Shown here: piece by piece, positions 8,171 through 57,590 of the stretch | How positions within the stretch are numbered: the stretch's first letter is position 1 | How the letters are laid out: the number at the start of each line of letters is the position of its first letter | Origin: Micrasema longulum | Taxonomy: Eukaryota > Arthropoda > Insecta > Trichoptera > Brachycentridae | DNA length: 64,000 bases | Assembly: GCA_022494885.1 (NCBI GenBank) | Contig: JAGVSM010002916.1 | Span: 62,001 to 126,000 of the forward strand | Direction of reading: 5' to 3' | Translations under genes and position numbers: made by a program | Notes under the pieces: model-generated | Told to the model about the DNA's origin: nothing | Databases searched by the model: none | The model's input: only the letters and a program-made list of their open reading frames with translations

Positions 8171-8428
8171 ATTAGCATCATTCCCTTTCCGCACGAAATG
8201 GTGCATAGGGCACTGCATTAGTACACCAATCGCAGCGTATCTTGATGATTTTTGTTACATGAAGATAAGATGAACAGTATTACGTTTCAGGTACCAGTCC
8301 AGGGACTATGACATATTTTAGTGTAAAACACCCTTCAAAACAAATATTTCAAATCAACCATGTCGGGAATCGAACCCGAGACCTCTTGCATGGTAGGCGA
8401 ACGCGCTGACCACAAAACCACGGGGTCG
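8171..8428 (-). mobile_element. SINE-1, near full-length
   Basis: Read on the minus strand, a tRNA-like head has an A-box region (TGGTCAGCGCGTTCGCC) and a B-box (GGTTCGATTCC), best resembling tRNA-Gly. The body contains AGTCCCTGGACTGG and ATCAAGATACGCTGCG. Other copies end in a GAT-repeat tail. Confidence 0.75.
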
Positions 8429-15148: not shown

Positions 15149-15205
15149 ATGATGATGGCCACCTGGCTCCTCGTCCTCGCTCTCGTCTTCTGCTGCACTC
15201 TTCAG
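15149..15205 (+). CDS. Dl: Delta coding exon 1 (signal peptide)
   Basis: Codes for 19 residues, MMMATWLLVLALVFCCTLQ: a hydrophobic signal-peptide core after three tandem ATGs. The first ATG is chosen because it has a G at -3 and no upstream in-frame ATG runs into it. The donor is CAG|GTACCT, phase 0. The next exon joins in frame and continues with VSGSGLFELRL, the usual start of mature Delta. Confidence 0.9.
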
Positions 15206-18200
15206 GTACCTTCTACCGTCCATCTTCACCGTCTTCGCACCCGCGAACTGTCACCGACTTACCACTTCAAACTTTGTCGCTGTGTGCTCGATCTAAAACT
15301 TTTACCCGTCATTTGAAAGTTAGAATTCGCGATTCATCATTTGCGTGAATGAAAAAGGCTAAGTTATATCACTTTGTAAAAGTTCAATGCATTTTTCTAC
15401 AAGTATCTACCAAACTTTTACAAAGTAGGGTACATTTTAATTCATAAAAACCATAAGGATCCAACCAAAAAACTAAAATTACGCACGCGGTAAAAACGTT
15501 TGCGTTTGTCGGTAAACAGTTTTTTTTTAAATTGGTATCCCTGTTTTTTCGTTAATTGTGCTAATTCAAATTTAATTCATTCACCGTTTAGGTAACAAAC
15601 ATAATAAATTTTAGGAAATCTATTTTTTTATTTCCATTTATTATGAGTAAATGTAATTTTTGCACAGTTTTAAAATATCAAGTATTTTTAATATATGTAT
15701 TAGAAATCTCAATTCGAAAATCTTAATACAACGTTCAAATAATTATTTGACAGTAAAATTCAAATAAGTTTTTATGTGACTAAAAACATTTAAAATTAGT
15801 ATGACTGATAAAGATTTTGTAAGGTTTCTTTAAATGCAACGCATTTTTGTTTAAACACATTTTTTTATAAATAATATTTTACCTCAGACAAGCATCGTTA
15901 CTTGTTATTTACCCGGTTACACCAGTAAAAAAACATCAGATTCATAATCATTCAAATAATTTTAATGATGTACGGTGTTTGTACTAAAAATCAAACATTT
16001 TTTTCGTTAAAAATACTTCTAGTTTTGTTCCAACTGATTCTGACCGACCGGACGTGTTCGAATTCAGATTTTGTCCATCGTATTTTATTTTTCTCAAGGA
16101 TACGTTTTTTATTTGCCTCTATCTGCCAGTTTTTTTTTTAACCGACATCATTGGACTCTGATTAATTAAAGTTTATTTATATTCAAATTAATTTAAATGC
16201 CAATAAAGTCAAGTTTTGGCCCATAATAAAACTCGTAAGAGATAAACCGTATCGAGACCCGTCAAAAATAACCGATCAATCAACATTACGTGTGCACCAC
16301 ATTCGATTTGTTTTAAATGTTTTGTTTTACTTGATCCTCGTTTTTTGATATTATATTGATAAATATAAATACAAAACGGTATTTGTAAAAAAAATATGAT
16401 CTTTCAAATCTACCAGAGAAAGACAACACGAATGTTGGCCCATGGACCCTGTAAACTGCCTTCGGGCTGAACCTTTTAACGCTGTATCAATATTATTGTT
16501 TTTTTTTGTTTTTTAATTGTCATGATTGAGTCATTATTTTTAAAACCTATAATAGTTACACTGTTTTGCATTAAAAGTGATTTCTCGCGTTGCAGACGTG
16601 TGCACGAAAATAATTTTTATAAAAAAAATCATTAAAAGCTTCTTACTAAAATTAACTTATATTATGCATTATCGTGTTTTTAAATGCCACAAATACTTAG
16701 TGCAAAATGTTATATCAGTAGAGCCAAATACGATGTAAACTACATCTTTCAAATAATATTTATCAATCTTTATTTATTTATTTTTAAGCAGTAACATATT
16801 GGGTACCAGTAAAACTTCCAGCGGGTAACGTTGTTCTTTAAATTTGCTGTCTGCATTATCTTTTTTTGTAAAAAAATAAAAATTGCATTCTAAAGTGAGG
16901 TTTTGCCTTTTTAAAAGTAAAATTGAATAAATAAATAAAAACAAAACAAATATTAGTAAGTAATATGTATTATTATAGCTATGCAAAATTTATTTTATTG
17001 CGTTGTATTTTTGGTACTTTTTAGCATCTCGGAATTTTTCGAATTAAAAAAATAAATATTTATGTTCTAATGATTTACCCAAATATTTCAATTTCCAAGA
17101 GCAGTAAATAACTCTATTAAATGTAAATGTTTCGTGATGAACCAAAATATGGATTGTATTTATAAGTAAAATTTCTGTGTTATTTTAATAAGTTATGTAT
17201 ACCTGTCATAGAAAATAGAAATCCCATTCCTAATTCTAATTCCTAACTTTATATCATAATAAATAAGTACTTTCTTCACGGGCACGTTACGGGAGAGTAT
17301 CTTTATTTTTGTGCAATTGAAAAAACTTCATAAAATGTTTTATTTACCTTCTTCACCTACGTTTAATAGTTCAAATCTTGTTATTGACGTCATTTCACAG
17401 AAATAGTTTTTTTTTCCCATATCGACAAATATCTCAATGAATATCGGTACTTATTACTACCGTACAGTACGGTACTTAAAATCTGATTATATGTTATCAT
17501 TTTTAATTTTATAATATGCATTATTTGCGTTAATTATATGAACCCTCAAATCAACATTACTATAGTGTAGGTATTATGGATATAGCGTTATTTTTGAAGG
17601 GCGCCATACAAATGATTTTATGCAGCACTAAATTGAATTACAAATAAAATTTACATACTAATAATAGTTTATCAAGATGATTTCCATATTGTCATATTTA
17701 TAATGTTAATGTCAAATGTTGGAACTTATCTTAATATCTTTTTGCGATTTATTTAACTATATTATCCCGTTTAAATAAAATAGTAATTATTTGTAATTTT
17801 TATAATTTTTGTTTATCTGCGATCCCGCGGCAGTGTCGCGTACTTGCGTATCTGTTTGAACCCTGCTCTACCACAACTTGATTCCTATTCTTTGAATGTT
17901 ATTTACTATTCGAAAATCACCACGACATTGAAATATTTTACTAATCATAAGAATCAAAATATCTACTTCCCTTTTTTTTAAATAAACAAATGAAATCTTG
18001 TAAAATAATATACATTACATAGGTACATGTCATTAATTTTGTGATGTTATGAATTTTTTAATCTCGATTTAGACATGGCAAATTCGTATCATTCTGAATT
18101 TCATTTGAGAAAGGGAATTTTTGTATTCATGTCTCTTGATGTTTTATTATTATTTCTATAGAAACATTTTTAAGGCACTTAAATCTATGTTTTTAAGAGT

Positions 18201-21200
18201 ATCTTGTATCACTAACTGAAGATTATTGATTTTACATGCTTACGCATCAACAATTAAACTTTTTTATTTGATGTAGATGATAGTTCGAATCGGATTGGAA
18301 TATTTTGATATTTTAACATTTGTTATCGTTACTTTATGAGTTGTAATGAAACATCTCGCTTCCATTTTCTGGCAAGTGCGGTGTACGATGCACAGATTTA
18401 TAGTTGACTTTATTTATTCGTCTTTACCTGTACCGCTCCCGCTAGCGTGCGCGTGTATCGGTGCAAGGTGTGCGACCGCATCTGTATGTGTGTCTCTATA
18501 CTGTACACGATCATCACTTTCCCACGCTCGCTGCGCATCCGACCACAGTCCTCGCGCGGAGACCTCGCCCGTCTCTCTCCTGCGCCCGCATCCGGAGGCG
18601 CGAAGGACCGAGATGCAGCCAGACCGTCCGGCACTGGTATTCCGAGGCGAGATCGCCCGCTGCGCCGCCGACTGGTTATTCATACCGAACGGAAAGGCAT
18701 CTCGAGCTTTATCGAATCGCCTCGCTCTAACTTCCGGCGAAGTGGTACCTCTAAAGGAGACGGATGCATCTCGCGCTATTCCGTCCGTCTTCTCCCTCGA
18801 AGTTTTCGCGGCTCTGAGCTTTTTGTACTTCGTATGAACATTTCTCGCATTCGTCGGGATGTGTGGATGTCCCCTGAAGAGATTATTTATCTCTTTGTTC
18901 GCTCCCTGATTCTCTTGTTTCACAGAATGACTACATCGCTTATTTAGACAAACCCCTGTAATTCCATGATCTTGCGTGTATTTTATTTAACGTTTCCGAT
19001 AGTTTTTTTCGCATTACTCTACCATAGACCATAAGGATTCTCAGCATAAATGAAGAAATATACGTTTTTTTGTATCGTCAGTTAAAAATACAATATAAAG
19101 TAGAAAATCTTCCGAAGTTTTCTCACATGACTCGCAATGAATAAAAGATTTACAGTCAAGTTTGTGTCTGTTTGTTTTTTTACGTTATTTGCCTATCGCG
19201 ATGGATGGCAAAGTACTAACTTCTATCTGAATTATTCGAGTTTGTCTCTGGCCTTTTTTTATTCTCCAGGTTTAAAAATGACTTCTTCATTGGATTTACT
19301 TACTCCGCAAGTTGAAAAGCACTTTTATTTTAAATGTAATTTGAATTAGTTTATACTTTACTTATGTAAGTAGCGAAGTACCATTTACCGTAAAGTCGCG
19401 TTGTTTGGGTCTTCTGCCACTCGTCATTTAGTGTATTACTCTTTCCGACCTGAAGATTTATCTCCGGTAAGCGGGTAGAAATGAGACAAGAAGTTATTGG
19501 CCAAATATATTATCACGAGACATCTCCGATAAATATCACGCCGTATTTCCACCTGTATCGCGATGCAGTCGGAGAGAGGCGCTTTGCAAAACCCCTTTCG
19601 GGAAGAAGTATGGAGTTACAGCGAGCGAAGGCGATAAATTAAACAATCCTCCGCGAGAAACCGTCCAAACCCCGGCATTTATTGCCATTTATTTGTTTCT
19701 TTTTTCAATCAATTAACAGAATTTAAATTATGGCCCCTTGACACGCACGATCCCCGTGCGAAAGCCTCGGATCGCATTCGCAATTTCGCCATCCTGTTTT
19801 ATTTTCCCGATAAGCGAGTAGGTATATGGAACACGAATCCTCGCGAACTTTTCCGCTCGTGTACATAATATATGTATCTCTCGGTTTTATTATTATTATT
19901 TCGACATCTCGATATTGTTTCGTTTGACATATTAAAGCAAATGAGTATTCCAATCGATTTTAATGCCACACATGAACGCAATGCTCAACTGTCATGTTTT
20001 TTAAAACGACACAGAGTTGAAAGACATTAAAGTTTTACGGAACAGGGCGATGAGAGTGGTATTTAAGTGTGGTCCGTTTACCAGGATTGAAATTTTGTTA
20101 GAGAAATTAAATATCCTGGATACTAAAAAGAGAATTCTGTTAAATATTCTGACTTTTATTTACAAGTTAAAAACAGACTGCATATAAATATTAAAAACTA
20201 TTAAGCCTTTAAAGAAAGTCTCAGGAAAGCTGTAAGCGTCTTAACTTGTCGAACCAAATGCTTTTTGTGTATTACGGATAGTGATAAGTAATTTGTACAA
20301 TGTGTATATTTATAGATAAATTTAAGTAAGATATATTTATTTATAGTGTAAATTTAAGTTAACTTGTAAATTTACAAACTAAACTATTAAATACAAATGT
20401 CACAAATTAGTCAATTCATCATTATTTACATTTGAGCATCTTTACTCGAGTACCAAGGACTTCGCTCCGACAGCGACAGCGACATGACGTTTGTAAGCGG
20501 GATTTTTTCGCCCCTCAATCAGACTCAGTCTATCATAGCTTCGCGCTTACTCCACCGGCCCGTCTGCCGTCCACTATCCGCGTCCAGGCGAGGGGTCGCC
20601 AGCACCGTTACGTGTGTAGTGTATGCGGTACATCCCTCCTATGGCCTCTAGCCTCGGGCCGCGAGACGCGAAACAGCGCCTCTTATCGCGATGTCTGCTG
20701 ATGTGGTCCTCCAATCTCCATCTTCCCATGCGTGCCGGGCCGGACTGTTAACAGAACATTTTGGAGATTCTCAATTTAGATTTAGATCATTCCGATGTTC
20801 TGTTTATGTAGATTCGCTATTTTAGATACGATTGGCAAAGAAATATTATAAATTATCTACTTACTTTTACGTCGATATTCTCCCGAGAGATTTGATTTTA
20901 GATGTTTCTTCTGTTTCTGATATTTTGTAGGAAAGCGGAATGAAGGTCTAGAAAAAATAGCCGTACTTTTGCACCCGCGAAGAGGGAAATATCACACACG
21001 ACGAATACCGATCAAAATATATGAAATGGATTTAGAATAATTAATTGTATTTTCAAAATCAATATGGATACTGTGGAGAAATGTTTTCATACATAAATGT
21101 AAAAAAGAAATTTAATAAAAATACGTTGCCAGAAAAACGCGACGTGTTTGGCCTTGGTTGTTGTGACGTCAAGTATTAGGGGCGTGTCCAATGAAATGAC

Positions 21201-24200
21201 CGTTTTTGCGGGAATATAAAATTACAAATTTAAAAATATTTTTTATGCTTTCGAATAATTAGCAAAATATTTTTTTTTACTTGAACTTTATTACTTTAAA
21301 AATGTTTTTTTTTAAACCTAATATTTCCCTATTGTTGGAATTGGAGAAAAATATTTGCAGTGTGGTCTAAATTTGTTAATGTCCCATAATGAGTCGGTTT
21401 CGTGACAAGCGGATTACTTAGTACGCTTCACTGGACCCTGCTAATCCGAGCTCTGTGTGTTCCGAGGATTACAGTCTGGTCCACTTAACGGGCCATTTGT
21501 TCCGTCCTCCGCCGCCAAAGGCGCCTAGGCATATTAGGAAGCGCTATTTAATGTATTTAGCCCCGGGTTATTTTTACTAAACTTCCCGACCGACTGCTCC
21601 ATTGTACCGCACTTACTTTCCACGATTTGAAACACTAACCACCTACCGCTGTATAATCATATCACTTAACATCACTCGAAGCGATTACCGATCATCCGGC
21701 TAATGGAATGTTTTTATGTTTGTTACTGTCGAATTTGTATTTAAAAGGATTCGAGTGTTGTACCAACTTTGTCATTATTGAAAAGCCGGAATCATGTTTT
21801 TTTCACCACGAGTCGCGCTAGCCATTGTTTCCAAATATCGTACGCGACTGCTAATTACATATATTCGCAATTACTCTCTCCTCCCCGCCTCGCTATGTGC
21901 GGTGTGGTCCGGAATAATACGAGATGCGAGGTGCATCCTTCCCCTAATGCATTCCTCGTCCATCGGAAGTGAAGACTACTTTTTGTTCTGCGCGTACCTA
22001 TTCTCTCGCGATGAATGCACTTCGCATCCAGATGAAGTACTCATTCCTCGCCTCTTCCTGCACGCTGCCGTACTGCGGTGTGGATTATACAAGCAACTCA
22101 GGTACCGAATCGTGATTCAATGAGTGAGATGCCTCCATTCCGGTTTTGTCGCGGTCTTGTTCTTTTTTCATTTATCCTGTAGGTTTCAGCACGAATTGGA
22201 TGCGAGTTGCGCAATTTTAAAACTTCGATTCATGATATGCTTTCATTGTATACGTTTCTGAATGTGTATTACTAGCGAATTTACTTTACCCATTTCACAC
22301 GTATGATCGAAATCCGTACGGTACGGTAAAATTAGGGTGGATTTTTTATTTTTTTTTATTTTTAAATTCAGCGGCTACTCTAGTCTAAAATGAAATCGAG
22401 TGAAGATTAGTCGACCTCGTGATATACTGGTTAATGCGTTTGCCTCTCATTAAATAAAAAAAAATATTTTTACGATGACGAAAATCGATCCATCCTATTA
22501 AATTGTATCGTTCCATTTTTTAAAAATCCGAATCCCGGCCTTTAAGATTACAATATTTTTTATTGATATTTTTATTTCAACGCATACTTCCCTACTTAAT
22601 TTCATTTACATTTACAATACCAGTACAAGCAGTTCTAAGTACATTGAATGTGACGTGCGTTACGAACATGTTTCGAGTTATCGAAAGTCTTCGTTTTTAC
22701 TCTTTCGAATTTGTAGCATCGGCAAGTTGATCGACCTTTTATTTCATTCAAGACGATGAGTAATTTCGGCATAAATTTTCTCCGCGTTTCAGTATAATCA
22801 AGTAAACCTTACTACATAGTTTTTCTGCGCGTATATTTCTCCGTTGCGCGATAAATATTTACGTTTTCTTTATTTCCCGCGTCGCGTCTGTCTATAGCGC
22901 CGGCGATGTGAGCAATTCCGAGTATTTAGTGCTCGAGATAAATTAAATTATGCCCAGTTTACGCTCCGCTCTGCATGAGATATTCGCTAACAGTCGCCTC
23001 GATCACCCCGCGCTCGGGCGATAGTTTAAAGCCTCGGATCAATTTGCTATGATTTTTTATCAATTTAGAAAGTCCCCGAACCTTCTTGTTTCGCTCGTCT
23101 ATATAATTGGATGGTTAAGACAAAGGTATTATCTAACCCGATTACCGCGATTGTCTCCGCGTTGGGTGTCCCCAGACCTCAAGCCTAGCGCTCTCCATCG
23201 CCCGATAGCAGCCTCTCGCAATAAGAGTTCGCGGTTCCGTTTGACTGACCACTCTCGTCTTTGTGTTTTCCGCGTAATCGTTCAACTGGAGGCGCGCTCC
23301 TGCGGGCCTCGGTCCCCGATATGAATGGCCGATCCGCAATTAGCTTCGGTTATTGTTCTTTGTGACCGATTACCTCTAATCGGATCTTTGTTTTTCGCCA
23401 CCGGTATCTGAATGGGCGCGGATTCCGTGGGAACTTCTCCGGCCCCCGAGTATTCCGGAACAATAACGCGCCTGTCGTAATGAAACTATACGGAGGTAAC
23501 CGCTCGCGCTGGCGCTGTTTAGGAGAACCGACAAATATTTGAATACGCCTCGAACAACTAAGCGATTTCCGTCAATCTCGGCCGACCACTTGATCAAATA
23601 ATGGCGTTCACGTCTTCATAAGTCTTCTGTACAAACACTTCACTACGTATTTACTTCACACGGAGTTGGGATTTCTTGTTTTTTTTTTGCGCTGACATTG
23701 ATTTTAATTCCCCGCGTTTATGTAACGCTTACAATCTATAAAAGCGGTGAATAAAATTTTAGTACAATTCGGGACGGGAAAGTTTCCGGCGCCTCTCGGT
23801 GTCGTCGTGTGTCGGCTCCAACGGACTATTTCTAGCGAAAACATTTTTATCCTATAATAAGTTACGCATTTTGAAGTGTATATCCATTCTAAATTTAATC
23901 TCGACTCGAGAAATCTTTCGGTAGGTAGGTACTTCCGATTGTTTTTATTTTCTCCGAATATCCAGAAGTATTTTAGTCCAGTATTCGGCGTCCTCCGCCC
24001 TCGAACGGTGCTCCCGTCCCATGTCCGACTTTTCACTGCACAACTTTCCCGTTACTCCCAACGTCTTATTCGTACAAACATCGCTTTAACAATTAATTGT
24101 TAACATCGACTTGAAATGATTTTAGTATGATTTTACAAAATGGTTTTTAACTTAACTCAATGTAAAGATGTTCCCATAAGCGTGCCTAAGCCAAAATTAA

Positions 24201-27200
24201 AAGTTCTTTTCAATTTATTTCACCTTTTTGAATGAAGTATCTGAAGTAAGTGCAAAACATTTGTCTTTTTATCAGTTTCTTATGGCTGATTATTTGCCAA
24301 CTTGTAACTCCAATACGGTCTGGAATCGAATCACTCGAGGCTGTTTTGTAATGCATCGCTCGTCTCGGTTTGTAGTTTAGGCTTTGTACGGGAGCTCTCG
24401 GTGTAGGAGTGTTACGGCGACGATACTTCGGGGGATTTATAAAGAAGGTAACCTCGAAATCAATCACTGCCTAACACTTTCGCCGTAGAGTGGCTTAAAC
24501 CGTGTCATCTCTGACGCTGACAAAAGCGGGCGAATGCACCGTGGGAAGAAAATCACTAGGACTAAATTGACTTCGATTACAATATTGATTCCCGCTGTGG
24601 GCGGATACGGCAAGTCTTCTCGTAATCCCCGCTTCATTAGCGATCAATATCCGGCGTTCGGCTCCGACTGCCCTCATACGCGATCCAATAAATAATTCCT
24701 ATCGAGGTGTACCGTGTGTCTGGTTTCGCAACAGCCGCCCACGCCCGCGACTGGTGACTAGCTGATAGTCCGCTCTTGCGTCACAGCGGGGCTGTCCTTT
24801 CGGTTCTCTCCTCGTTCCCACACCTCGCCAAGTGAACCTTCCCCGCGTGAACAGTACGCGGAATCGAATATAATGCACCACCATTGCGCTTCTCTAGCGC
24901 CGAGTCGTGCACTCTGCGCTTGTGCTCGTGTCTGTTCGTCCTCTAGAACAGATTTGCAGTGCCATGGCGCGATGACTCAGCCGCGAGAGTACCTACATTT
25001 ACTAATGTGGAATTTTAAGGTTTCGAATGAGAACGTTTCACGGTTGTCTGAATACGATTTACGGCGCATTCGGTAAAGTCGAAAATTTGCAGAGGAATTC
25101 AACTGACATCACCGCCGCCAGTTTATTCTAAACTGTGACTTCGCGTTCGGAATAACATGGGTGACCTATAATAATCATTTTAATTATATGTTCTGTCGTA
25201 CCTATAATAATTTACGCTATTGTGTTTCAGTGCAGCGATATTCGGCGACAGTTGGTAGTAATAAGCCCCGTGGGATGTAATTTTTCCGGCACACAGTAAC
25301 ACACAATTGAGGGTAAACGGCAAGAACGGGATTATTACCAAATAACTAAATTAATTTACAGGAGATCAAAATGAAAAATGAAAAATAAACCTCATTTGTG
25401 GGACTCTGGGTTCGTGTATTCAATAAAAATAGGTTTTCAATTAATGCAATATTTTCAGAAAAGAACAAACAAAAACGTCTACTTAATTTTTTTTCAACTT
25501 AGAAAATAAGCTCGCTGCAGCAATCGTCATTTTGACAGTTTTTTTTTGCCAGCCGTTTATAAGACAGGGACCTACAATTTGTTGGTCGATCATGGCATTT
25601 ATATCTCGAAAATCGAAAAAATGCAAAGTGTACCCTTCAATTGAGTAGTAATCCTAAAATAATTAAGTCGCGCAGTACCTAACATATAAAAAAATCGTGC
25701 GTTTAATTTATCGAAGAATACTTTCATATTTACGCCTCTAAAATAATAAAAGTAAGCAATTTTAATATCACGTTTTATTTATTGTTTCCATACGCATGTT
25801 TGGCGCTCATGGGCTAAATGTACACTATGGGGTAAATTTTATTTGATCCACCGTACCAACATAAAAAGGTGTAATGTTTCAGTGGCTTTCATTATATCAA
25901 CTATCGATCGAGCTACCCGTTTCCATAACGTTTAATGTACTCAGTACATTCATAAAAAAATATTCTGTCTAACACAAACAACATTTAGTTTGATCGACAC
26001 CCGCCTTTTATATTATAATTAGTTAATCGTTTCAATGTGTAAAAAATATAAACACTTGAGATAACTGTAAATAATTGGCCACAACTAGTGTGTTCCGTTC
26101 GCTCATTGCTAGAAATTTTATCGAAGCAAATGCGAACAAATGTACCTACTATAATATGCACACATGCCCAGAGCACGGTGGCACGCTGGAGGGTCCTCTC
26201 CTATCAACCAACTGTCAATATACTTTAGAACAAACCGACAATGGTGTTTGATTAACCCCGCGGCTTCCTCGTCACTACCCCCATGTTTCGCCACTTGCTC
26301 TCTACACTCTGGTAAACACACTTTCACCCCAACTTTTCAACCCCGTATGTATTTCGTCCTCAGCAGTCCTACTGAATAGTGCGTTACCGAGTTCGCGGCA
26401 CAATATTACGCAACCTCTCACCATTCCCTCAGCCCCTGGTATTCTATACAAGAAACATTGTTTGTTTCAGTTTGTTTAGAGCCAGACGTTTCGCCTTCTG
26501 CACTATCTTGTTTGCTTCTCGCATGGGGGTGTTCTGTTTTAAACGGATGTGTGCACAAGTCTACCTTTTAGAATATGTCGAATACTATAGAGGGAATGTG
26601 TGAATTCATGAAACCCCTAGTTTTTTTTATCCACTTCTAAGAAACCACAGTGGATTCCGTTTTATGACTCGACTACTAAACTTGAACACTTAAGTACTCG
26701 AAATACTGATGTTTAAAACTTCACGAAAACTTGCAAAATATATCAATTTAAGGGCTTTACTCATAAACTTAGTAAAAATTGACGCCTAGGCATAGCGGTA
26801 GAATACGGATGGGAACACCAACCTTATTATAGTGGTAGAATAAAGATGGTATTCTTATCATTATTCTACCACTATGCCTAACGTAACACTATTCCAGGCT
26901 TAAGTAAAGCCCTAAGTAATTATGAATAGTTTTACAGCGTTTAATAGAAATTGACGTAGAAATGTTAAAGATGTAAATTTGGAATCAAATATAGAAATGA
27001 ATTAATTCCTAGACGAGCAATTTCTCAATTCGCGATCGCTAAATGATGTGTTCGTCTCGACCCACAAAAACTCGTTTCTTTTGTGATTCATGAGAAAACT
27101 GGTCTCGAAAACTCGAATAGTCAGTCTAGCCGCGAAAACGATATAATAAAGGGTATGAAAAGAAGTAGACTAGGTGTTGCGCGGATTAATGAAGAGTAAT

Positions 27201-39200: not shown

Positions 39201-42200
39201 GTTCTTATAACCTATACCTATATCTATAATATAATGTTTAACGCGGTGATTTATCGCGTATGCGCGTGGAACGTACAACGCACAACCTAGTAGAGAAAAG
39301 ATTTCGTGCATCTGCTAACATACTATCTAAACAACAAATATCTTGGACAAACATTCCGTTTAAAGAAGGGCCGCGTGCCTCGCCCTCCGCTCGCCGAGAT
39401 CTTTCCCCGAAGATTCTTTATATCGCGGACGAAAATGACTCTTAGGTCTGCCTTAGAGAAGCCTATAATTGCACAAGTCCGAAGCCAGGTGTCGGTTGTA
39501 TCTTTGCGCAAGATGTACCCCGCAACAAAAGAATTCCAACGAGAGACTTCTTCTATTGTAATGATTGCGAGTTTTCTATTATTATGGCGATAACATTTTC
39601 TTTGGCAATTGTTTGCACGCGCACAGCTTCTTATTGTATGTCTCCTTCCCGCTTTTATTGAATGCATTTTTCCCGTCATTTCTAAAACGCTAAATCTTAT
39701 AATATTTGAGTAATGATCCATTTCTGAAGCGCGGGGAGACTTTCTGAAAACAGCTGTCGAAAAATATTTCGTATTCCTTAATTTCTCTCATAAATCTACA
39801 TAGATATATTTGTTTTTTTTGCTTGAACGAAGAATGATATTTTTTGACTCTTTCAATGCGCTGTGATTCTCATAATATATAATCAGAAATGGAGTACCTT
39901 CGTAATACTGTTATAATAATTAGCGTAGTCATAATATTCACCGCAAACGATCTCCCGGTAACGAACGGCGAAAAATATTGCGGTCAGTTGGAAGTATTCT
40001 CATTAAATTCCCTGTTCGTCCGAAGTAATATTTCACTTCGAGACTTTGTTCTTCTCAGGGAGCCGTCTCTTGCGCTCCGCCCTTCGAACTCCTCGACGCC
40101 CACTTCTGGTCTCCCTATCCCTTCAGCTTCTACGGAATTTTTAATTATTATTATTTTTGGGCGCAATACCTAGCTTCGTAAGGTGAGCACCCTCCAAATC
40201 CGATTGTTATAATTGGTTTTAGAGGTACACAATGAATGATCGTGCCCGCCATGAAAACCTATAATCATTTTAACATATATCACTCGACCCGCTCTCCGTA
40301 TCTTTTAAACATTCTATTTGATATAATTGGTTCCAAAACCATCGATGCGGTCGCTTATTTGAATAGTGATTCGTAAACTTTGATACTCGCTGAATATTTA
40401 ACTCATCGCTTCGAACTAAAAACTATCGATAGCACGCTACTAAATCCTGTAAGTCGGGAGGGTTGTCCTCGGGGCTCCTTCGTCCCTCACTTTCGATTTC
40501 TTTCCAATAACGCACAGAGCGCCCACCGAGCATGAATGGAAGCGAGATCGTCTACAAAAAGTCGGAACTGGCCGCGGGCCAGGACAGGTAATGGCTTCCA
40601 TCACGATGGAAGTTTCGGACAGCCACGGCAAGAGCGGCACAAACAATACCGTTGCGTGAGGCGCAGACGGGCGCGGGCGGCTCGGGCCAGGCGTGTGGAG
40701 CTAGCCCGGGGCTCCACCGCCCGAATAATTATAGAATTAAAGGCACACACGAAGCCAGTAGCCGATGGAGATCTTGCCCGGAGCTAAAATATTATATTCG
40801 GACAGTCAAACGTACGCGTTATAACTCGTTAGGCATTATGTTTATTATTCAAATCGATCCTTAAATGCTTACAATGCGTATCCGGTAACGATTTAATAAC
40901 TCTATGTTGCGCATGAAATATTCGGGATGAGGAAAAAACATCGGGACAAGCATCATCGGCTCATCTCGCAACAATCGGGAGTGATGATCTCGTAGAGATT
41001 AATAAACTAGTTGTTCATTTTCGCTCTCTAGATATACTGATTCGACCCTCATTTTTTTGTTTGCATGCTTGGAACGTTAATTTATATTTGGTAGATCGCG
41101 TTAAAAGCAAAGTATGCTTGGATCACTAAGGTTAATAATAACACTCATTAGGACCGCGTGGTGCGCTAGTTCCATAGCTCACCCTTGCAGTGGCTGACCG
41201 TTAGCGCGGTCGCTGGGACTACGCGAGCTCGCCACTCGCTCCGCCCCTTTGCCTGAACTCCCGATCGCTGATCCGCACTCCTGTTTATTTATTTTTATCT
41301 TACTCCGCCCGCCGATCTCATCTCTACTCATAATTACATATTATCCCACAGCCTCCTTGAGTGGTGCGGTACCTCTCACTACCCCAGACCACGGAATTAA
41401 CTCCACCGCGTATTATCTTAATATTTATTCCGTGCTTTTGAAAACCCCCGTTTTGCCGCCGCCTTCCATTTAAAGGTTAACATTGTTTTTTATTACGTAT
41501 CAAAAGAAATTACATGGGTCGATTAAACATTAACAAAATGTTATTATTGACATCGTAAATCGTAAATTAATAAGTCATTTGCATGTAACGCGTCATTTGA
41601 AAATTTACGTTAATTTTCATCCAGGTAATAAATGTTGTCATTGCATCTCAAAATAAACTTAATCGTAAGAGGTCCAGCCGTATGTCCAAAGTATTTTTTT
41701 CTGAAATTATCCTACTCTAGATATCGGCCACTCTGCCTCCTGGTTTGTGACTTTCCTTGCGACCGGAAGGTTAACAGCGTGGGAAAGGAACTCGGAGTTA
41801 AAACGCTCGAGGCGGGGTTCGCGTAACCCGCACCTCCTTTTTCTTGGCCCATAAGTTGGCGTGAATCGATGGGAAGTTGCATGCGCGAAAATGATCTCCA
41901 TGCAACTCTTAAACATGATTACGAACTACTTTTACTAAACTTGCATTAATTTATCTAGATTCTAACCATATTGTTTGTTTTAGGTGGCTCCAGTGGAACT
42001 CTGATCTCGAGGATGAGCAAGCAATCGATTCTAGGAGTCTCTGATCAATGGCAAGCTGGAGAACACCGCTCGGCTGATTCCCTCAGGGTACTGCGCTACG
42101 AGTATAGGGTGACCTGCGATGCCCATTACTACGGTCAAGGATGTGCCAGTCTCTGTAGACCTAGAGATGATAGCTTCGGCCATTACACTTGCTCTCAAAA

Positions 42201-45200
42201 TGGAGAGAGAATATGCCTTTCCGGGTGGCAGGGAGATTACTGTTCCAAACGTAAGTACTTACTATTTTTCAATACCTTTAAAATAATGTGTTTCTTATTA
42301 CCGTTATGGCCGTTTTTTTTAGTTTAATTTAAAATTTAAGACAGTATCGTCATCAGGTAGTTAAGTGTACGAGTTTAGTTCTTTTAGACAGTTTTACATG
42401 ATAATTTCGCATTATAAATAAACAAATCCGCCATTTTTTAATATTTACTCGTTCCCAATAACAGTGTGTGGCCATCTTTCTTTTATTCTGATTTTTTCAT
42501 GAGAAAAATTTATGAATTTTAAATTTCACGCGATCAATCAGTAAGTGCAATTAGATGGTTCGCCGATTAGGCCCATCCAAACATGCGATACTCGCTCAAA
42601 TATGAAGTTTTTTTGCACTCGCCACATCACAAATCCGGGACCAAATCGCATCGGAACTAAAAAATTATGAGTATTACCTACGAATCCTACGAAATAGAGC
42701 ATTTGCTCTCCATTCATCCGTACTAATGAATTCAATTCGTAAATTGACGCTATCGTATGAGCATTTTTAATTTGGCTTCCTCATTATTTTCCCTCTCGTT
42801 GTTTGCTTGTTAAATATAACTAACGTTGTTCTGTTGCTTGTTTTGTTCCTTACCGTCATTATATCAATGAGTAAACTAATCGGATTCCAACGATCGAAAG
42901 ACAATAACAATCAGGAAGATATAGGCACCGAGCAAGATATTGTTACTGCGGGTGGTCAACGTAGGAATAAATAACTTTCTGGTTGTAGTCTAAACGCTAA
43001 ACGTAAGTATTACAGAGGGAAATAGTACGCTCGATCTCGCTAAGTCTATTCAATCGAGCACATCCCGCATGTTCTTTATGACTTTGTGTATTTCACCTGC
43101 CTTCTTTCCATCCTGCCAACCCTTGCTTGGGTATCTTATTGAACGACCGCTGTTGTCCGGCAAGGATTCAGTTCCCACACTGCTTGCAGCCATTAAGCCG
43201 CTATTACAGCTGCCCTTTGCAGCGCTCTACGGCTCCTGTTATTAAAAGCCATTTTTAAAAAACGCTTTCCTTCGAAAACGCGATGTTTTTGTTGCGGTTC
43301 CGAAATGAACACGGACGTTTGGCGTGATCGGATCGCATTAAACCCTTACATACGCCTTTCATATCTGTTTGTTTTCTGTCGTGCGAAAGATTTCTCTCGT
43401 TCTCGATGATATTATACAACTACTTAAAACTTTTTGAATGCATTTTTTAGGTAAACTTATATCATTATTTAAACGTGGAAAAAACGGAAATGCTTCTCAA
43501 ATATGCTAAATTATGAAAACATTTCACCCGGAAAAGATATCGTTTTAAAGTAAACAGGGGTAGACAAAAAATGATAATGGTGCGTAGTGCACATGTACAC
43601 ATACTAGTCGTAGCCGGGTGTTCCCAACAAAGGGACTGGTGTTAGCTAGAATGAGATGCTCGCAGCGGCAGCGTGGGAAGGTTCTACCACCTACAACTAC
43701 CTGCTGCGCCCGAATTGGAACAAAAAACTCTTTCTCGCGATCTAAATAGGATGTTATTTTAATAATCGTGTTTTGGTTTCGTTCTTGGGCATATTGCATC
43801 CGTCGTGTATTTAATATTCGCAGTTCGATTGTCGTCCAACTAGATTACTTGAGCTTATTTCAATGTTTCATGTTATACATGAGTGCTGTCAATGATTGCG
43901 CGATAAATGCCATACCGCACTTAGCGGGACCGAGAAAGCTCTCTGCCAACCACAAAGAGTTCAAAAAACGCATTAAAATGAAACATCCGAACCTCCATCC
44001 GGTGGTTAACTCGGTACCTGTTGCCTCCCCTCACCGCTCCATCATCCCACGCCGGCAATCTTAATTGCTTGTTTTGGTTTTTGTCTTATAACATGCAGTT
44101 AATTTTAGAACGACTCGCTTCTTCTCTCCGGTCGCTCTCGACTCGATAGCACGACGTGAATCGAGTGACGAATTTACTACAAACAATCGAAATAAGGACT
44201 TTCATTATTTCAATAACGATGCGATGAACTTTGAATTTGACTTGTAACATATCAGATTGTACCGTGGTGGTATTTCACATATGTTTTCATCCATCTTCTC
44301 ATATCTTTCGATCAGAATCTACTCAAATGGACAGCGCCTCTTTATTTGTCCGGTTCGATAGATCCGTAGTATTCATGTTATAAATGATGGTGGATATTTC
44401 ACAATCAGTTGATTTATAACAGTTTTATACGTATCGCAACATTCATTAAACATGCAATAACTTCGTTACTGATTTTGAAAATTTACTGTATTACGCTTTT
44501 TCATATCGACTTAACAACTTTTAAAAGTATCGAAAAAATTACATCGCTTGGCCATTGACTGTATCGTAGAAATTATACATTTTTGATCAGCAGCACCTGC
44601 TAATGCTTAAAGGGCGGTCTTGCTCCAGTGACGTTACTACCGCACGTGGCCCGCATCATCAGTACTTTTACGCGACAAAGGTTATCAGGTCGTGTTTTCA
44701 TAGCATCGTTCTTATACCTCTCGCTTACCCTAACAGTGCAGTACATATACACACGAGTGTATCCCTTTCGCTGTTGGAAATGCAAGGGTTACAAACATGG
44801 GACAGCTGTGTATAAGTTGTAGTATGATGACCTCAGTGGATAAATGTTAGATTAAACATTTAATGGAAATATGTTACGCAAATCCTATAAATAACTAACG
44901 TACATAATATATTGACCGAATCGCTCAAAGCAGGTATTCAACGTTTCTTAAGATTGCAAAGCAATTATAAAATACGATTGAATCAAAAGTTCACAAATAT
45001 GTGTTTGTATTAGATAGGACTAGTCTCGTACTTTGTTGGCACAATTACCCTCTTTTATGCCCCCTATCTGCTTATACGAATAGTACCTAGGGGAATACGT
45101 ACACAAGTCTAAAACGAATAATGCATGTAGTTTGTAACGGTCGTTTTCGAGTTATCACCACGGCTACATTTTTCTAATGTTTATTTTTTATCGGAGTAAT

Positions 45201-48200
45201 ACTTGTCCCGGTATTTTTTTCTCAAAATTTTCCAACTAACATAAAATGATGTATTTGTAATATGTACATAATCTGGCCTTCACACGACTATAATTAGATC
45301 AGGCGAGTATTCATGATCTTGATGATCTTTCTTCACCTCGTACCAAAATGAAATCATATTTAAGGAAAACCGAAAGTTTGTCGTAGATCAGCTCGGATTC
45401 CTAACTCATTCGGCGATGGAAATTGGGTTTTAGTGTCGGCAACGGGCATCCCTGTGTCTGACAGTAAATAAACAAATATAATGTTTGTGGCGCGAGACTG
45501 TAGCATTTATGTCGAGTTTTATCACTACCGTGTATTTATAACGTTTGTGCGGCCTTTAATAACGTCTTACTATGCGAGACTTACTGCATCAAAATTTTTA
45601 AAGATGCAATCAGTAACTGTTGCGAAATGCAATAATATTTTTAGCAGAATTTCACGCAGTCTCCTGCCACACACGTGCTACGGATTTAGCTTGAATCTCG
45701 TCCTTTTTTCGTCGTGATGTGTTTTATTTTTCTGTCTGCTTTTAAAACTTAAATTGCTCTTCTTTCTCCGACCGAGTCAACTAATTGTGTGCTCTTTTTG
45801 TCCACAGCTCGCTGCTTGCCTGGATGTGATTCCGACCACGGCCATTGCAACAGACCAGACGAATGCATGTAAGTATACCAATTTTTTACTTTGTATAAAA
45901 GTTAAAAGTTTACATTTAAAAAATTCCGCTCATTTTCTCTGTCACCAAATCCAACTTTTCATTGTCTGCCGCAGAACCGTCGAGCAAATACTCGTTTGAT
46001 AATACTCACTCGGTTGATACGTCGATAGTTGTGTCTGCGGAGGCCGTTCGGAATCACCTGCCTCGCGCATACCTACCAATCCATTCGTAAATAATATCCT
46101 CAGTCCATAATTCTCATTCTAATTCCGAAGGCGTAATTCCTTCGCAGCATGTTGTCGTGCGCATTTTTTACAGCCCCATACCGGTATCGCGAATGTTGTA
46201 ACGAGGTGCATAACCCGAAGTTGCAAAACACGAGAATCGCGCTCATTCCGACCAATATTAATCGCGCTTATCATTACCGATTTGCGGAATATGTCAATTG
46301 CGTTCGAACGTTCAATTCGATGGCGCCCGTTTTTTGTTATCTCAATTCGCTCGAGGATCTTTCTGTAAACCGCTCTGCCTATCAATCGCGAGCTTTATTC
46401 CGAACCTACTGCAAAACCGGCACTCGTTTATGCGACGCGCTTGTGTTTTGTATCGTTTTCTTATGTCCCACTGTTCCATTGATCGGATATGTGATATGTC
46501 GATGAGACCACATTGTTGGATGTTTCATTCACCATTACAATCTCCTACCAAGGTACTCTTCTCTCTCTTATAATATCAACATATTATCGTCTGCTTCGTT
46601 ATAAATGCGTAGTTAACGAGAAACGAGTGATGATTTTAAGTAGGTAGTAGTTTTTAAAAATAAAAAATATTTTTAAAAAAAAACATAGATCACGCAAAAC
46701 GGATACACGTTGAATTGAAAATAAAGCGAACTCTTTCGTATTCTCATCTTTCCTAAATCTGTTTTTCATTGTCTACGATGTGCTCTACTGGTTCCCACTT
46801 CCGCCCGTTATAGACATTGAATACGTTAACGATCATCGCAACGTCTTCGCCCCTCCGCTTTCATTCCTCATATCAAATCTTTACAAGGGTGGTCTTAAAA
46901 TCAACCCCTCTTATTGTGTGTTAATGAAGCATTAAATGACTCGAATAACTTTTGTTTTCTCTTAAATTATTTTTCCAAAAGAAAAGTTCTAAGGATTTGT
47001 ACATGAACTCTTTGTAACATGTTTTGAACTTAATGATAAATAATACATTGCAATATGTAATCGGTAAAGGAAGTCCATTGGCGCCCCTCTCCACTTGACT
47101 AACTTCCGTGGCACTTGTACTGACTACTTCATCCCGAAGCTTTTTAATCACTCCGCATTCTATGATTAGTTCATAATGTAGCTTTAAATTAGTAAAGTGT
47201 TTCGTCCATCGAATTATGAGAACACATACAAATATACATATATATTCCAGTATATGTATGTGAAAATAGCACATGGTCTAGTAAATTTTTCCATTAATGA
47301 ATTATTTTCTATCCAAATATCCTTAAAAATAGTGACGCTTAATTGTCGTTGCAGCGTGATCGGCAATCGCTGGATCATTGATCGATGTGGAAGGTTCTTC
47401 GCGGCCTCGCCTTGACCCCGGCCACTCGCCGTGGGAACGCGCGCCCCGAAGAGCGACTATCCTCTTCTCTCCATATCTAACCATCTGCGGACTAAGAAAG
47501 ACGGCGACTGGCAGATCGCGAGGAATGCTAAATTATTGCGCATCCCGAGATGCGCGCGGACTTAGTTATTTATAGGTCATCCTTTTTGCTTTGTATCCAC
47601 TCCGCGGTGGGCAGGTCTGAGGGGAGGCGGTGGTTAATCGGCTCCGCCCGATTCACTTCGTAATTTTTAGAACTTTATTATTAACAATTTTATTATTTCG
47701 ACAAATCATTAATATTTATCTTCTTTCACAGATGTCATTCTGGATGGGTTGGCCGATTATGTGACGAATGCGAGAGATACCCAGGCTGCATGCACGGAAC
47801 CTGTCAAAAACCCTGGGATTGCCTCTGTGACGAAGGTTGGGGTGGTCTCTTCTGTAATCAAGACCTCAACTACTGCACAAATCATAGACCTTGCCAAAAC
47901 AATGGAACTTGTTTTAACACCGGTCAAGGATCTTACACGTGCGCGTGTCCTGCTGGTTTCACGGGAACAGATTGCGAACTGGAAGTTGATGGTTGTTCTA
48001 ACAAGCCCTGTAAAAATGGCGGGAAATGCAAAGAAGGTGGTTCCCATTATCGCTGCGAATGTCCCGAAGGCTGGAATGGGGCCCATTGCGAAACGCCTTC
48101 GCGCACCTGTTCCGATAAACCCTGCACACACGGAGGAACTTGTCACGTAAGGCACGGAGGCTATTCCTGCTCGTGCCCCCCTGGCCGCACGGGAACTGAC

Positions 48201-49419
48201 TGTGAGAGAGAAATGGATGACTGTGCTTCGTCTCCGTGTCAAAATGGCGGAGTGTGCAATAAGCTATCAACAGGTGGCTTCACGTGTAAATGCCCTGCCG
48301 GTTTTGTCGGTGATCGTTGCGAAACTAACGAAGATGATTGCCACGGTAACCCGTGCCTGAATGGTGGTACTTGTGTAGATTTAGTCGGTGCGTTTAGATG
48401 CCAGTGTGTTCCTGGGTTTATAGAGCGGTTGTGCCAGACCAAAGTGAATTTGTGCTTAACTCTTCCGTGTGCGAATGGTGGCACTTGCTCAGACTTAGAT
48501 AATGACTATCGTTGTTCCTGCCGTGCAGGATTCACGGGAAAAGACTGCAGTGTGGATATTGACGAGTGCCTGTCGTCTCCTTGCCTCAATGGAGGTACGT
48601 GTATAAACAGAGTTAACAATTTCACGTGCGCTTGCGCCGGTGGCTGGAGCGGATGGCGGTGTGACGAATCAGCTTACTCGGAAGGAGCGGCGATGGCGGG
48701 CTCCAACAGGGCAGGGGCCGGCAGTCTCTCCCGTCAAGTGGCAACTGACGGGACGCTGTCAGCGCAACACGTGGCGGCCATCGCGGCTCTAGGCGTCGGG
48801 CTACCAGTTCTTCTAGTGTGCGGGGCAGTCGTGGCTGCCTGTCTTCAGCGACGGCGTAAACGAAGGCGAGCGGCGGCTGATCGAGAAGCGCGCATGCAAA
48901 ATGAGAGAAACGCTCATGTTTCGCTGTCGAAACGCGACCCCCATGTGATCAAGAACACGTGGGGTAAGTGCATCAACAATGTGACGGCTTCCAACAGTCA
49001 CGTGTCGGAGCTATCCGAGTGCCAGAACGCGCACAATGTGAGCCTCGCGGAGTCCGAGTGCTCGGGTAAAGGGGGCGGAGGGGGCCCCCTGTCCCGCGCG
49101 CGCTCGCACAAGCAGCTCAACACGGAGTCGGCGGCGCGCCTGCTCTCGGCCAGGCTCAGTCTGCTCTCGTCGGACTCACTCTGTACAGCGAGGTAAATAT
49201 ACATTTTTTTCCGTATATTTTCTACTAAAAATCAACCACATGTTATAATATTTGAACATCCTTCTCTCCCGATATGTAATATTTTGTCTAACGTGATTGT
49301 TTCTTCGTTACAGTGATGCGTCCCTCGTGAAAAGGCCGACGGAGAAAGCGTCCGGTATCTACGTCATAGAAGACCACTACCTCAGGCCGGATCCCGGGAC
49401 GTTTGCCACGCAGGTCTAG
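15149..49419 (+). CDS. Dl: Delta, DSL-family Notch ligand (7 coding exons, 771 aa)
   Basis: Joined exons are 15149-15205, 27614-27916, 36195-36255, 41984-42250, 45808-45868, 47732-49192 and 49314-49419. They total 2316 nt with consistent phases 0,0,1,1,2,2 and GT-AG at every junction. The product is a type I membrane protein that binds Notch on neighbouring cells and drives lateral inhibition. Visible parts in order are: signal peptide (about 1-21); MNNL domain (about 22-125); DSL domain with its six cysteines at 185, 194, 198, 210, 218 and 227; nine EGF repeats between 232 and 560; a membrane segment at about 597-620; and a basic stop-transfer run at 623-629. The tail keeps NERN (640-643, the Neuralized-type NxxN motif) and IKNTW (656-660, a conserved Delta motif linked to Mindbomb), and ends in ATQV. 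The tail is shorter than in Drosophila. Domain order and nine EGF repeats separate Delta from Serrate/Jagged, which has more repeats and a cysteine-rich domain. Confidence 0.97.
17040..17125 (-). repeat. SINE-2 fragment in Delta intron 1
   Basis: GATTTACCCAAATATTTCAA and GCAGTAAATAACTCTATTA match the SINE-2 body; the head is missing. Confidence 0.5.
17850..17990 (+). repeat. SINE-2 fragment in Delta intron 1, opposite orientation
   Basis: TTGAACCCTGCTCTACCACA, AACTTGATTCCTATTC and GAAATATTTTACTAATCATAA follow the SINE-2 order from the B-box outward. Confidence 0.55.
18519..18526 (-). promoter_or_regulatory. exact Su(H)/CSL site in intron 1
   Basis: TTCCCACG on + (CGTGGGAA on -) inside a GC-richer island. 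It matches the high-affinity Su(H) consensus YGTGRGAA. Confidence 0.5.
20005..20405 (+). pseudogene. LINE reverse transcriptase tail in Delta intron 1
   Basis: A frame from 20011 reads ELKDIKVLRNRAMRVVFKCG, then RIEILLEKLNILDTKKRI and NILTFIYKLKTDCI, ending in TAA at 20185-20187. The RNRAMRV...LLNxLxxIYKxK pattern is the region after the RT thumb in jockey/CR1-type LINEs. It is a 5'-truncated remnant with probable 3' UTR to about 20405. Confidence 0.7.
22324..22450 (+). repeat. SINE-like repeat (family 3) in Delta intron 1
   Basis: CGGTAAAATTAGGGTGGATT is identical to 57668-57687. Both copies continue with a CAG-GACTACT-type block, a GTGGT...GGTT...GCGTTTGCCT tRNA-like A-box region, and CATTAAATAAA. 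Confidence 0.6.
23426..23433 (+). promoter_or_regulatory. exact Su(H)/CSL site in intron 1
   Basis: CGTGGGAA in the 22860-24110 GC-richer island. Confidence 0.5.
24540..24547 (+). promoter_or_regulatory. exact Su(H)/CSL site in intron 1
   Basis: CGTGGGAA, with a TTCCCACA variant (TGTGGGAA on the other strand) 275 bp downstream at 24815-24822. Confidence 0.5.
26751..26913. mobile_element. foldback MITE in Delta intron 1
   Basis: 163 bp with long terminal inverted repeats. The left end AGGGCTTTACT and the internal TAGGCATAGCGGTAGAATA are mirrored by TTATTCTACCACTATGCCTA and AGTAAAGCCCT at the right. A second internal ATAGTGGTAGAATAA (26829-26843) makes a perfect 15-bp stem with 26861-26875. 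Flanks are TTA-rich. No coding. Confidence 0.7.
27614..27916 (+). CDS. Dl: Delta coding exon 2 (MNNL domain)
   Basis: Codes for residues 20-120, phase 0 at both ends, with acceptor TTTCAG and donor CCG|GTAAGC. It holds the MNNL (Notch-ligand N-terminal, C2-like) domain: FELRLKTFTN, the CC pair, then TRFRVCLKHYQ and the FPFDFAWP strand found in insect Deltas. The exon is much more GC-rich than its flanks, with many C/G third positions. The loop between the CC pair and TPC is Gly/Pro-rich and seems specific to this lineage. Confidence 0.95.
28080..28165 (-). repeat. degenerate A-module repeat in Delta intron 2
   Basis: ATCTAGGCATTTACTGGGCT, CTTATGACCT and CGTGTTACATTCAC are the A-module landmarks in reverse, much diverged. 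Confidence 0.55.
30815..30890 (-). repeat. possible tRNA-like SINE head in intron 2
   Basis: On the minus strand, GGATTAGTACCGCACGTCC precedes ATGGGTTCGGATCCCGGCA, a near B-box. No body is recognised, so this is tentative. Confidence 0.35.
34261..34268 (+). promoter_or_regulatory. exact Su(H)/CSL site in intron 2
   Basis: CGTGGGAA followed 91 bp on by GGTGGGAA (34351-34358), with homeodomain-type TTAATTCCAATTG sequence between them and a CACGTG E-box upstream near 34127. Confidence 0.55.
35442..35503 (+). repeat. TGTGCG hexamer microsatellite in intron 2
   Basis: About ten GTGTGC units in a row. It creates artificial (VC)n and (HA)n frames on the two strands, which are not genes. Confidence 0.95.
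36195..36255 (+). CDS. Dl: Delta coding exon 3 (end of MNNL)
   Basis: This 61-nt exon codes for GTFSLIVEAWHDSNETSRSG, a near-invariant Delta/Serrate block. It enters in phase 0 after TTCCACAG and leaves in phase 1 at G|GTAAGT, splitting a glycine codon. Because 61 is not a multiple of three, skipping it would shift the frame. Confidence 0.95.
36256..41983 (+). other. Delta intron 3 (5.7 kb)
   Basis: Non-coding. GC-richer blocks occur at about 36890-37740, 39340-39620, 40440-40790 and 41150-41460. A possible tRNA-like SINE B-box remnant sits at 38185-38205. One exact Su(H) word is at 41778. I see no gene. Confidence 0.85.
41778..41785 (+). promoter_or_regulatory. exact Su(H)/CSL site in intron 3
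   Basis: CGTGGGAA about 200 bp upstream of exon 4. Confidence 0.45.
41984..42250 (+). CDS. Dl: Delta coding exon 4 (DSL domain)
   Basis: Codes for residues 141-230. It holds the Notch-contacting DSL domain: RVTCDAHYYGQGC, LCRPRDDSFGHYTC and GWQGDYC carry the six DSL cysteines. The acceptor is TTTTAG and the donor C|GTAAGT (phase 1). The segment before the DSL domain (SKQSILGVSDQW) matches the spacer seen in insect Delta. Confidence 0.97.
42251..45807 (+). other. Delta intron 4 (3.6 kb)
   Basis: Non-coding, with GC-richer stretches at about 43140-43330 and 43590-44060. It contains an exact Su(H) word at 43672 and a weaker variant at 43172. No recognisable transposon is seen. Confidence 0.85.
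43672..43679 (+). promoter_or_regulatory. exact Su(H)/CSL site in intron 4
   Basis: CGTGGGAA in a GC-richer stretch. A TTCCCACA variant lies 500 bp upstream at 43172-43179. Confidence 0.5.
45808..45868 (+). CDS. Dl: Delta coding exon 5 (EGF 1, first part)
   Basis: Another 61-nt exon, giving PRCLPGCDSDHGHCNRPDEC. The acceptor is GTCCACAG and the donor AT|GTAAGT (phase 2). The cysteine pattern C-x3-C-x5-C continues into CHSGW of exon 6 to complete EGF repeat 1. An unspliced reading of this stretch gives a meaningless frame, so it is easy to miss without phase matching. Confidence 0.95.
45869..47731 (+). other. Delta intron 5 (1.9 kb)
   Basis: Non-coding, with a GC-richer block at 47400-47630 holding an exact Su(H) word at 47430. 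The frames running through 46119-46573 are not supported by family resemblance. Confidence 0.85.
47430..47437 (+). promoter_or_regulatory. exact Su(H)/CSL site in intron 5
   Basis: CGTGGGAA about 300 bp upstream of exon 6, in a CpG-containing block. Confidence 0.45.
47732..49192 (+). CDS. Dl: Delta coding exon 6 (EGF 1-9, membrane segment, most of the tail)
   Basis: This 1461-nt exon starts after TTTCACAG, entering in phase 2. EGF repeats by first and last cysteine are: 1 (232-260), 2 (263-291), 3 (298-331), 4 (338-369), 5 (376-407), 6 (414-446), 7 (453-484), 8 (491-522) and 9 (529-560). EGF 9 begins DIDEC, the calcium-binding type. The membrane span is about 597-620, followed by RRRKRRR. 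The tail has NERN, IKNTW, a cysteine/histidine-containing linker, and SHKQLNTESAA, which matches the KQLNTD block of Drosophila Delta. The donor is AG|GTAAAT. Reading through it gives TAA at once (49194-49196). Confidence 0.97.
49193..49313 (+). other. Delta intron 6 (121 bp)
   Basis: Short terminal intron with donor AG|GTAAAT and acceptor TTCGTTACAG. The donor's TAA is in frame with exon 6, so unspliced transcripts would stop at residue 737 and lose the last 34 residues. Confidence 0.85.
49314..49419 (+). CDS. Dl: Delta coding exon 7 (C-terminal end, PDZ-type motif)
   Basis: After acceptor CGTTACAG the split codon AG|T gives Ser737, then 34 residues and TAG at 49417-49419. It reads DASLVKRPTEK, then GIYVIEDHY, and ends TFATQV. 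The last four residues fit a class I PDZ ligand (x-T-x-V), as in vertebrate DLL1/DLL4 (ATEV). This supports the exon as real even though it is short and follows a 121-bp intron. Confidence 0.9.

Positions 49420-57320: not shown

Positions 57321-57590
<270 letters not shown>

Follow-up and report, generated by a model that had tools for sequence, protein, structure and literature searches.

The introns of the Delta gene in the caddisfly Micrasema longulum are enriched in words of the Su(H)/CSL kind: the consensus YGTGKGAA occurs there 17 times against 3.4-3.9 expected, a four- to fivefold excess, and seven of these occurrences are exact copies of the word CGTGGGAA. This excess suggests, but does not prove, a direct feedback of Notch signalling on the gene of its own ligand. 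The window, i.e., the whole stretch of DNA that was analysed, comprises 64,000 bases, and the background for the counts was provided by shuffles and Markov models of this same window, together with its own flanks.

The gene in the window is an insect Delta on the plus strand. In a protein search, the product of exon 6 had 78% identity, with 100% query coverage, to the protein P0001 of the caddisfly Arctopsyche grandis, which was the closest protein among the best 120 of 2734 matches; the other named insect Deltas in this set had 45-59% identity. The EGF and the Delta/Jagged EGF families of Pfam were matched on exon 6, and the best solved relative of its product was Delta-like protein 1. No DNA relatives of this exon were found among the phage records or viral contigs scanned. 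Residues ~19-779 of P0001 were collinear with the plus strand of the window by tblastn. The assignment of the gene to Delta in the original prediction is thus borne out by the identity to the caddisfly protein, by the collinearity of P0001 and by the Delta/Jagged EGF domains of exon 6. Exons 2-7 were delimited by tblastn of P0001 combined with the GT/AG splice sites, which gives the following model:

15149..15205, plus strand, coding part of Delta exon 1 with the signal peptide MMMATWLLVLALVFCCTLQ, placed by reading, with the GT donor at 15206 and without a transcript or tblastn match
27614..27916, plus strand, Delta exon 2
36195..36255, plus strand, Delta exon 3
41984..42250, plus strand, Delta exon 4
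45808..45868, plus strand, Delta exon 5
47732..49192, plus strand, Delta exon 6, with EGF repeats, transmembrane and cytoplasmic parts, placed also by the protein match and Pfam
49314..49419, plus strand, Delta exon 7, with the C-terminus ...FATQV and the stop

The range 15206-49313 of the original prediction extends from the first donor through the last acceptor of the model. The gene body has a GC content of 0.395 vs 0.33 in the flanks and a CpG observed/expected ratio of 1.41 vs 1.06-1.11. In 4-kb windows, GC is ~0.36-0.47 at ~18000-50000, a span that begins within intron 1 and ends with the gene, and ~0.30-0.35 in the flanks and over the initial 3 kb of intron 1. Local composition as the cause of the excess of Su(H) words was ruled out by block shuffles; repeats were also rejected, the sole family of direct repeats of at least 30 bases in the gene body, a GTGTGC array at 35432-35509, being without any site. 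No inverted repeat pairs were found in the gene body. The arrays and other features of the window are as follows:

35444-35507, tandem array of GTGTGC in intron 2, 10.7 copies
57321-57588, AATA array of 66.8 copies in the right flank
8355-8427, minus strand, tRNA-like match barely over the Rfam cut-off (29.2 vs 29, E 0.054)
4908-5730, minus strand, two overlapping ORFs in different frames, of 172 and 159 aa, without a Pfam match

The tRNA-like match is possibly the head of a SINE, and the pair of ORFs looks, by eye, like a broken transposable element. From the 27 ORFs listed, five of the nine in the flanks and one intronic ORF were compared with Pfam and gave nothing above the cut-off, the sole sub-threshold match among them being DUF5657 (E 0.043).

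An exact-word scan of both strands returned CGTGGGAA at these positions of the window:

18519..18526, minus strand, CGTGGGAA, intron 1
23426..23433, plus strand, CGTGGGAA, intron 1
24540..24547, plus strand, CGTGGGAA, intron 1
34261..34268, plus strand, CGTGGGAA, intron 2
41778..41785, plus strand, CGTGGGAA, intron 3
43672..43679, plus strand, CGTGGGAA, intron 4
47430..47437, plus strand, CGTGGGAA, intron 5

These are exactly the seven positions, and no others in the window, that had been listed in the original prediction, which had also placed them solely within the Delta introns, with at least one in each of the five long ones, and had reported none in about 29 kb of flanks; the scan agrees on both counts, with three copies in intron 1 and one each in introns 2-5, and with no copy in either the left flank (15,205 bases) or the right one (14,687 bases). 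The absence from the flanks, taken alone, is weak evidence, because only ~0.4 copies are expected there. The earlier expectation of 0.4-0.8 copies also proved right, since Markov models of orders 0-3 give 0.57-0.86 for the gene body and the doublet-preserving shuffles of the introns, made over their full length or within 500-base and 200-base blocks, give 0.63-0.73. In each of these three settings none of 300 dinucleotide-matched shuffles reached seven copies (0/900 overall), the intron bounds in these first doublet shuffles starting 94 bases late. The main counts were repeated on introns delimited by the final exon bounds and shuffled in blocks of 300 bases, with the GTGTGC array left out, and the seven copies then stood against 0.67 expected, with 0/1000 shuffles reaching this number. 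For the whole window the expectation is 1.38, and seven copies were attained in 0/100 shuffles.

Of the 420 rearrangements of its letters in which one CpG is retained, CGTGGGAA itself is found seven times in the gene body and each of the other 419 at most four times. Of the 3520 8-mers that match it in having five G/C and a single CpG, only four phases of the GTGTGC microsatellite outnumber it. In the ranking of all 32,896 8-mers with the array masked it is the 1st at Markov order 3, the 4th at order 2 and the 14th at order 1, the words above it at the lower orders being mainly A/T-rich. Chance together with selection may account for the excess, if a lucky word was picked by the reader out of many windows and known motifs scanned by eye, and the probability multiplied by 32,896 words amounts to 0.07 to 1.1, varying with Markov order and masking; as a blind 8-mer search, the excess of CGTGGGAA is not secure. 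However, it is secure for a word that the pathway of the gene itself names, and it draws its weight from this and from the neighbour-word test given below, in which CGTGTGAA, uncounted in the original prediction, is also enriched; chance with selection is considered unlikely on these grounds.

The logic of this test is that, if Su(H) causes the excess, the other words bound by Su(H) should be enriched and the poorly bound ones should not. In the available part of PMC4176381, the highest-affinity consensus of CSL is [T/C]GTG[G/T]GAA, and CGTGGGAA is the best word, with a Kd of 0.06 uM vs 0.50 uM for TGTGGGAA, in line with the earlier designation of CGTGGGAA as a high-affinity Su(H) word. Among the 24 one-letter neighbours of CGTGGGAA, only CGTGTGAA has p <0.05, being found in the introns six times vs 0.96-0.99 expected (p 0.003; 0/1000 shuffles with the final bounds); its enrichment agrees with the published CSL consensus, which admits G as well as T at position 5. 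Taken alone, neither TGTGGGAA (2 vs 0.6-0.7, p 0.12-0.14) nor TGTGTGAA (2 copies) is significant in the introns. Besides the seven copies of CGTGGGAA, the word scan gives ten sites of the consensus YGTGKGAA:

22294..22301, minus strand, CGTGTGAA, intron 1
23655..23662, minus strand, CGTGTGAA, intron 1
24815..24822, minus strand, TGTGGGAA, intron 1
26597..26604, plus strand, TGTGTGAA, intron 1
28672..28679, plus strand, CGTGTGAA, intron 2
30731..30738, minus strand, CGTGTGAA, intron 2
33876..33883, minus strand, CGTGTGAA, intron 2
38672..38679, plus strand, TGTGTGAA, intron 3
43172..43179, minus strand, TGTGGGAA, intron 4
45279..45286, minus strand, CGTGTGAA, intron 4

None of the 17 sites overlaps an exon of the model, none of 1000 shuffles reaches 17 (maximum 11), and the flanks hold four sites vs about 4.16 expected. 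By over-representation, YGTGKGAA is the 1st of 3360 permuted patterns (P 7e-7). The broader YGTGDGAA is found 18 times in the introns vs 5.2-5.3, and its narrowing to YGTGKGAA is partly post hoc, having come after the panel counts and the consensus of PMC4176381. With A at position 5 (YGTGAGAA) there is no enrichment in the introns (1 vs 1.8). YGTGMGAA (3 vs 3.9) and RGTGKGAA (3 vs 2.7) are likewise at the background level there. The preference for G/T, but not A, at position 5 provides a compact test that the motif excess tracks a known binding preference. Outside the consensus, YGTGKGBA, which differs at position 7, is mildly raised in the introns (14 vs 6.7, p 0.007), still so after removal of the GTGTGC array (13 vs 6.5, 17/1000 shuffles), and the neighbours of CGTGTGAA, CGTGTGCA and CGTGTGTA, are weakly raised, with p of 0.02 and 0.05 that become 0.12 and 0.05 with the array cut out.

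A panel of 45 words was counted in the introns, three of them being overlapping Su(H) forms and POU and Nub/Vvl being the same word twice; the three Su(H) forms had the top z scores (7.5, 5.6 and 4.2), followed by a Gli word (2 copies), the proneural E-box and the M-CAT word. The panel, the neighbour-word and permutation tests and the tests of site surroundings used intron bounds a few bases off the final model.

Zinc-finger proteins of the Ikaros kind read TGGGAA, and a factor of this sort, with a motif overlapping that of Su(H), might have produced the excess, the more so as TGGGAA itself is raised (24 vs 12.4-13.4). However, the excess lies in words that begin with C or T and carry G or T as their fifth letter, those beginning with a purine being at background, and a reader of TGGGAA would not select CGTGTGAA, which makes such a factor very improbable. 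An intronic motif acting in the RNA, on its splicing or its stability, would fit the six of seven CGTGGGAA copies that lie on the sense strand (two-sided p 0.125), but the whole set of 17 consensus sites is split 9 to 8 between the strands, and this explanation is hardly credible.

The surroundings of the seven CGTGGGAA words are distinct. Within 100 bases on each side, mean GC is 0.534 vs 0.386 for the introns overall and 0.426 around 304 control words of the same letters (p 5e-5), and there are 19.4 CpG per 200 bases vs 12.7 around the control words (p 0.0005); the surroundings of the ten weaker consensus sites are not GC-rich (GC 0.39). These GC- and CpG-rich settings might resemble enhancer cores within an A/T-rich intron. 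They are also what would be met if CGTGGGAA were common in all GC- or CpG-rich introns, or in the open chromatin, of the species, whatever the gene, a genome-wide property that accords with the richer composition of the gene body than of the flanks, the introns examined being those of Delta. However, the 200-base block shuffles retain local composition and yet expect 0.67 copies, and the low counts of the CpG-keeping permutations speak against it too, so that this explanation is judged improbable, if slightly less so than chance with selection.

The arrangement of the 17 sites is dispersed. An opposed partner 5-30 bases off with no more than two mismatches, as in SPS pairs, was found for one site of 17 (chance 0.17 per site), and there was no homotypic clustering, with at most two sites in 1 kb and five in 2.6 kb (p 0.36). 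The proneural E-box RCAGSTG is raised in the introns (13 vs 5.6; 15 in the flanks), and it lies within 150 bases of one of the 17 sites, the median distance being as random (p 0.40). Nor were the sites closer to the M-CAT word than by chance. As separate observations, the M-CAT/TEAD word CATTCCT is found in the introns eight times vs 3.2, e.g., at 17225, 21950, 22042, 27344, 32105, 35295, 46862 and 47521, and once in the flanks; CATTCCTC is more strongly raised than CATTCCT (7 vs 0.6-1.1); and CTCCGCCC, an Sp/KLF-like word, has 5-6 copies in the gene body vs 0.2-0.5 expected.

The sites in the Delta introns are, judging by the word statistics, very probably for the most part genuine Su(H) sites under selection, and three or four of the 17 would be chance occurrences at background rates. 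The best reading of the data, which we hold to be probable, is direct CSL control of Delta through these candidate intronic sites, and the earlier claim that Notch acts directly on Delta through its introns is partly supported. The introns would hold ~17 dispersed consensus CSL sites, selected and situated inside intronic enhancers, the seven CGTGGGAA copies being the strongest word. Single Su(H) sites in several such enhancers would make Delta a direct target of the nuclear switch of Notch: without the signal, Su(H) with Hairless would hold the Delta enhancers down, and once the signal is present, NICD and Mastermind would take the place of Hairless on the bound Su(H), leading to derepression or activation. 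CSL sites can equally serve default repression, and, as to the sign of the net effect on Delta, activation and repression are each given less than an even chance. It is only tentatively proposed that the caddisfly Delta is a direct multi-enhancer target of Notch, in which single high-affinity sites in every long intron would serve graded feedback or default repression by Hairless, bypassing the relay of E(spl) and the proneural genes. Whether insect Delta is under direct Notch control, or under that of E(spl) and proneural genes alone, bears on whether a tissue forms a checkerboard (lateral inhibition) or a spreading domain (lateral induction), and the 17 named sites open this question to tests in a non-model insect. 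As a regulatory lead the finding is solid and of an ordinary sort; it does not amount to a system of a new kind.

Among the papers listed, none deals, by title and abstract opening, with intronic Su(H) sites of an insect Delta gene; 'Su(H)' is unsearchable as a term and most subscription journals lie outside the search, so that this is not evidence of none in print. The mouse Dll4 is described, in the accessible part of a review (PMC10952167), as a direct target of RBPJ via enhancers that include an element of intron 3, and for this Dll4in3/F2 enhancer the abbreviations of its table appear to record motif, binding, mutation and knock-down evidence. According to the available text of PMC5508205, Dll4 is sustained by a Notch-dependent positive loop. 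Mouse Dll4 is a precedent for CSL input into a Delta-family ligand gene through an intron, such input being predicted in the caddisfly. However, Dll4in3/F2 is one enhancer, tissue-specific and partnered by ETS/SOXF factors, whereas the caddisfly sites are single, spread over 30 kb, known from sequence and without a nearby partner word of the two tested.

In the E(spl) genes of Drosophila, the Su(H) sites are promoter-proximal and often paired, unlike those of the caddisfly Delta, which are intronic, unpaired and not near E-boxes. The words are of the same kind, the fly E(spl) consensus being given as C/TGTGA/GGA in the part of PMC1310631 available, with A or G at position 5 where the caddisfly sites have G or T. 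The Notch targets grh and dpn of Drosophila have, by the accessible text of PMC4725341, enhancers in their introns to which Su(H) binds, and they resemble the caddisfly gene in having Su(H) words, here candidate sites, in introns. Unlike Delta, grh and dpn act downstream of Notch and are not ligands.

In the loop of lateral inhibition, Notch activates E(spl), which represses the proneural genes, which in turn activate Delta. Such a loop is described in the available part of PMC5446262. The proposed control shares with it the dependence of Delta transcription on Notch; however, the loop is indirect, and the caddisfly sites would add to it a direct, second and faster step.
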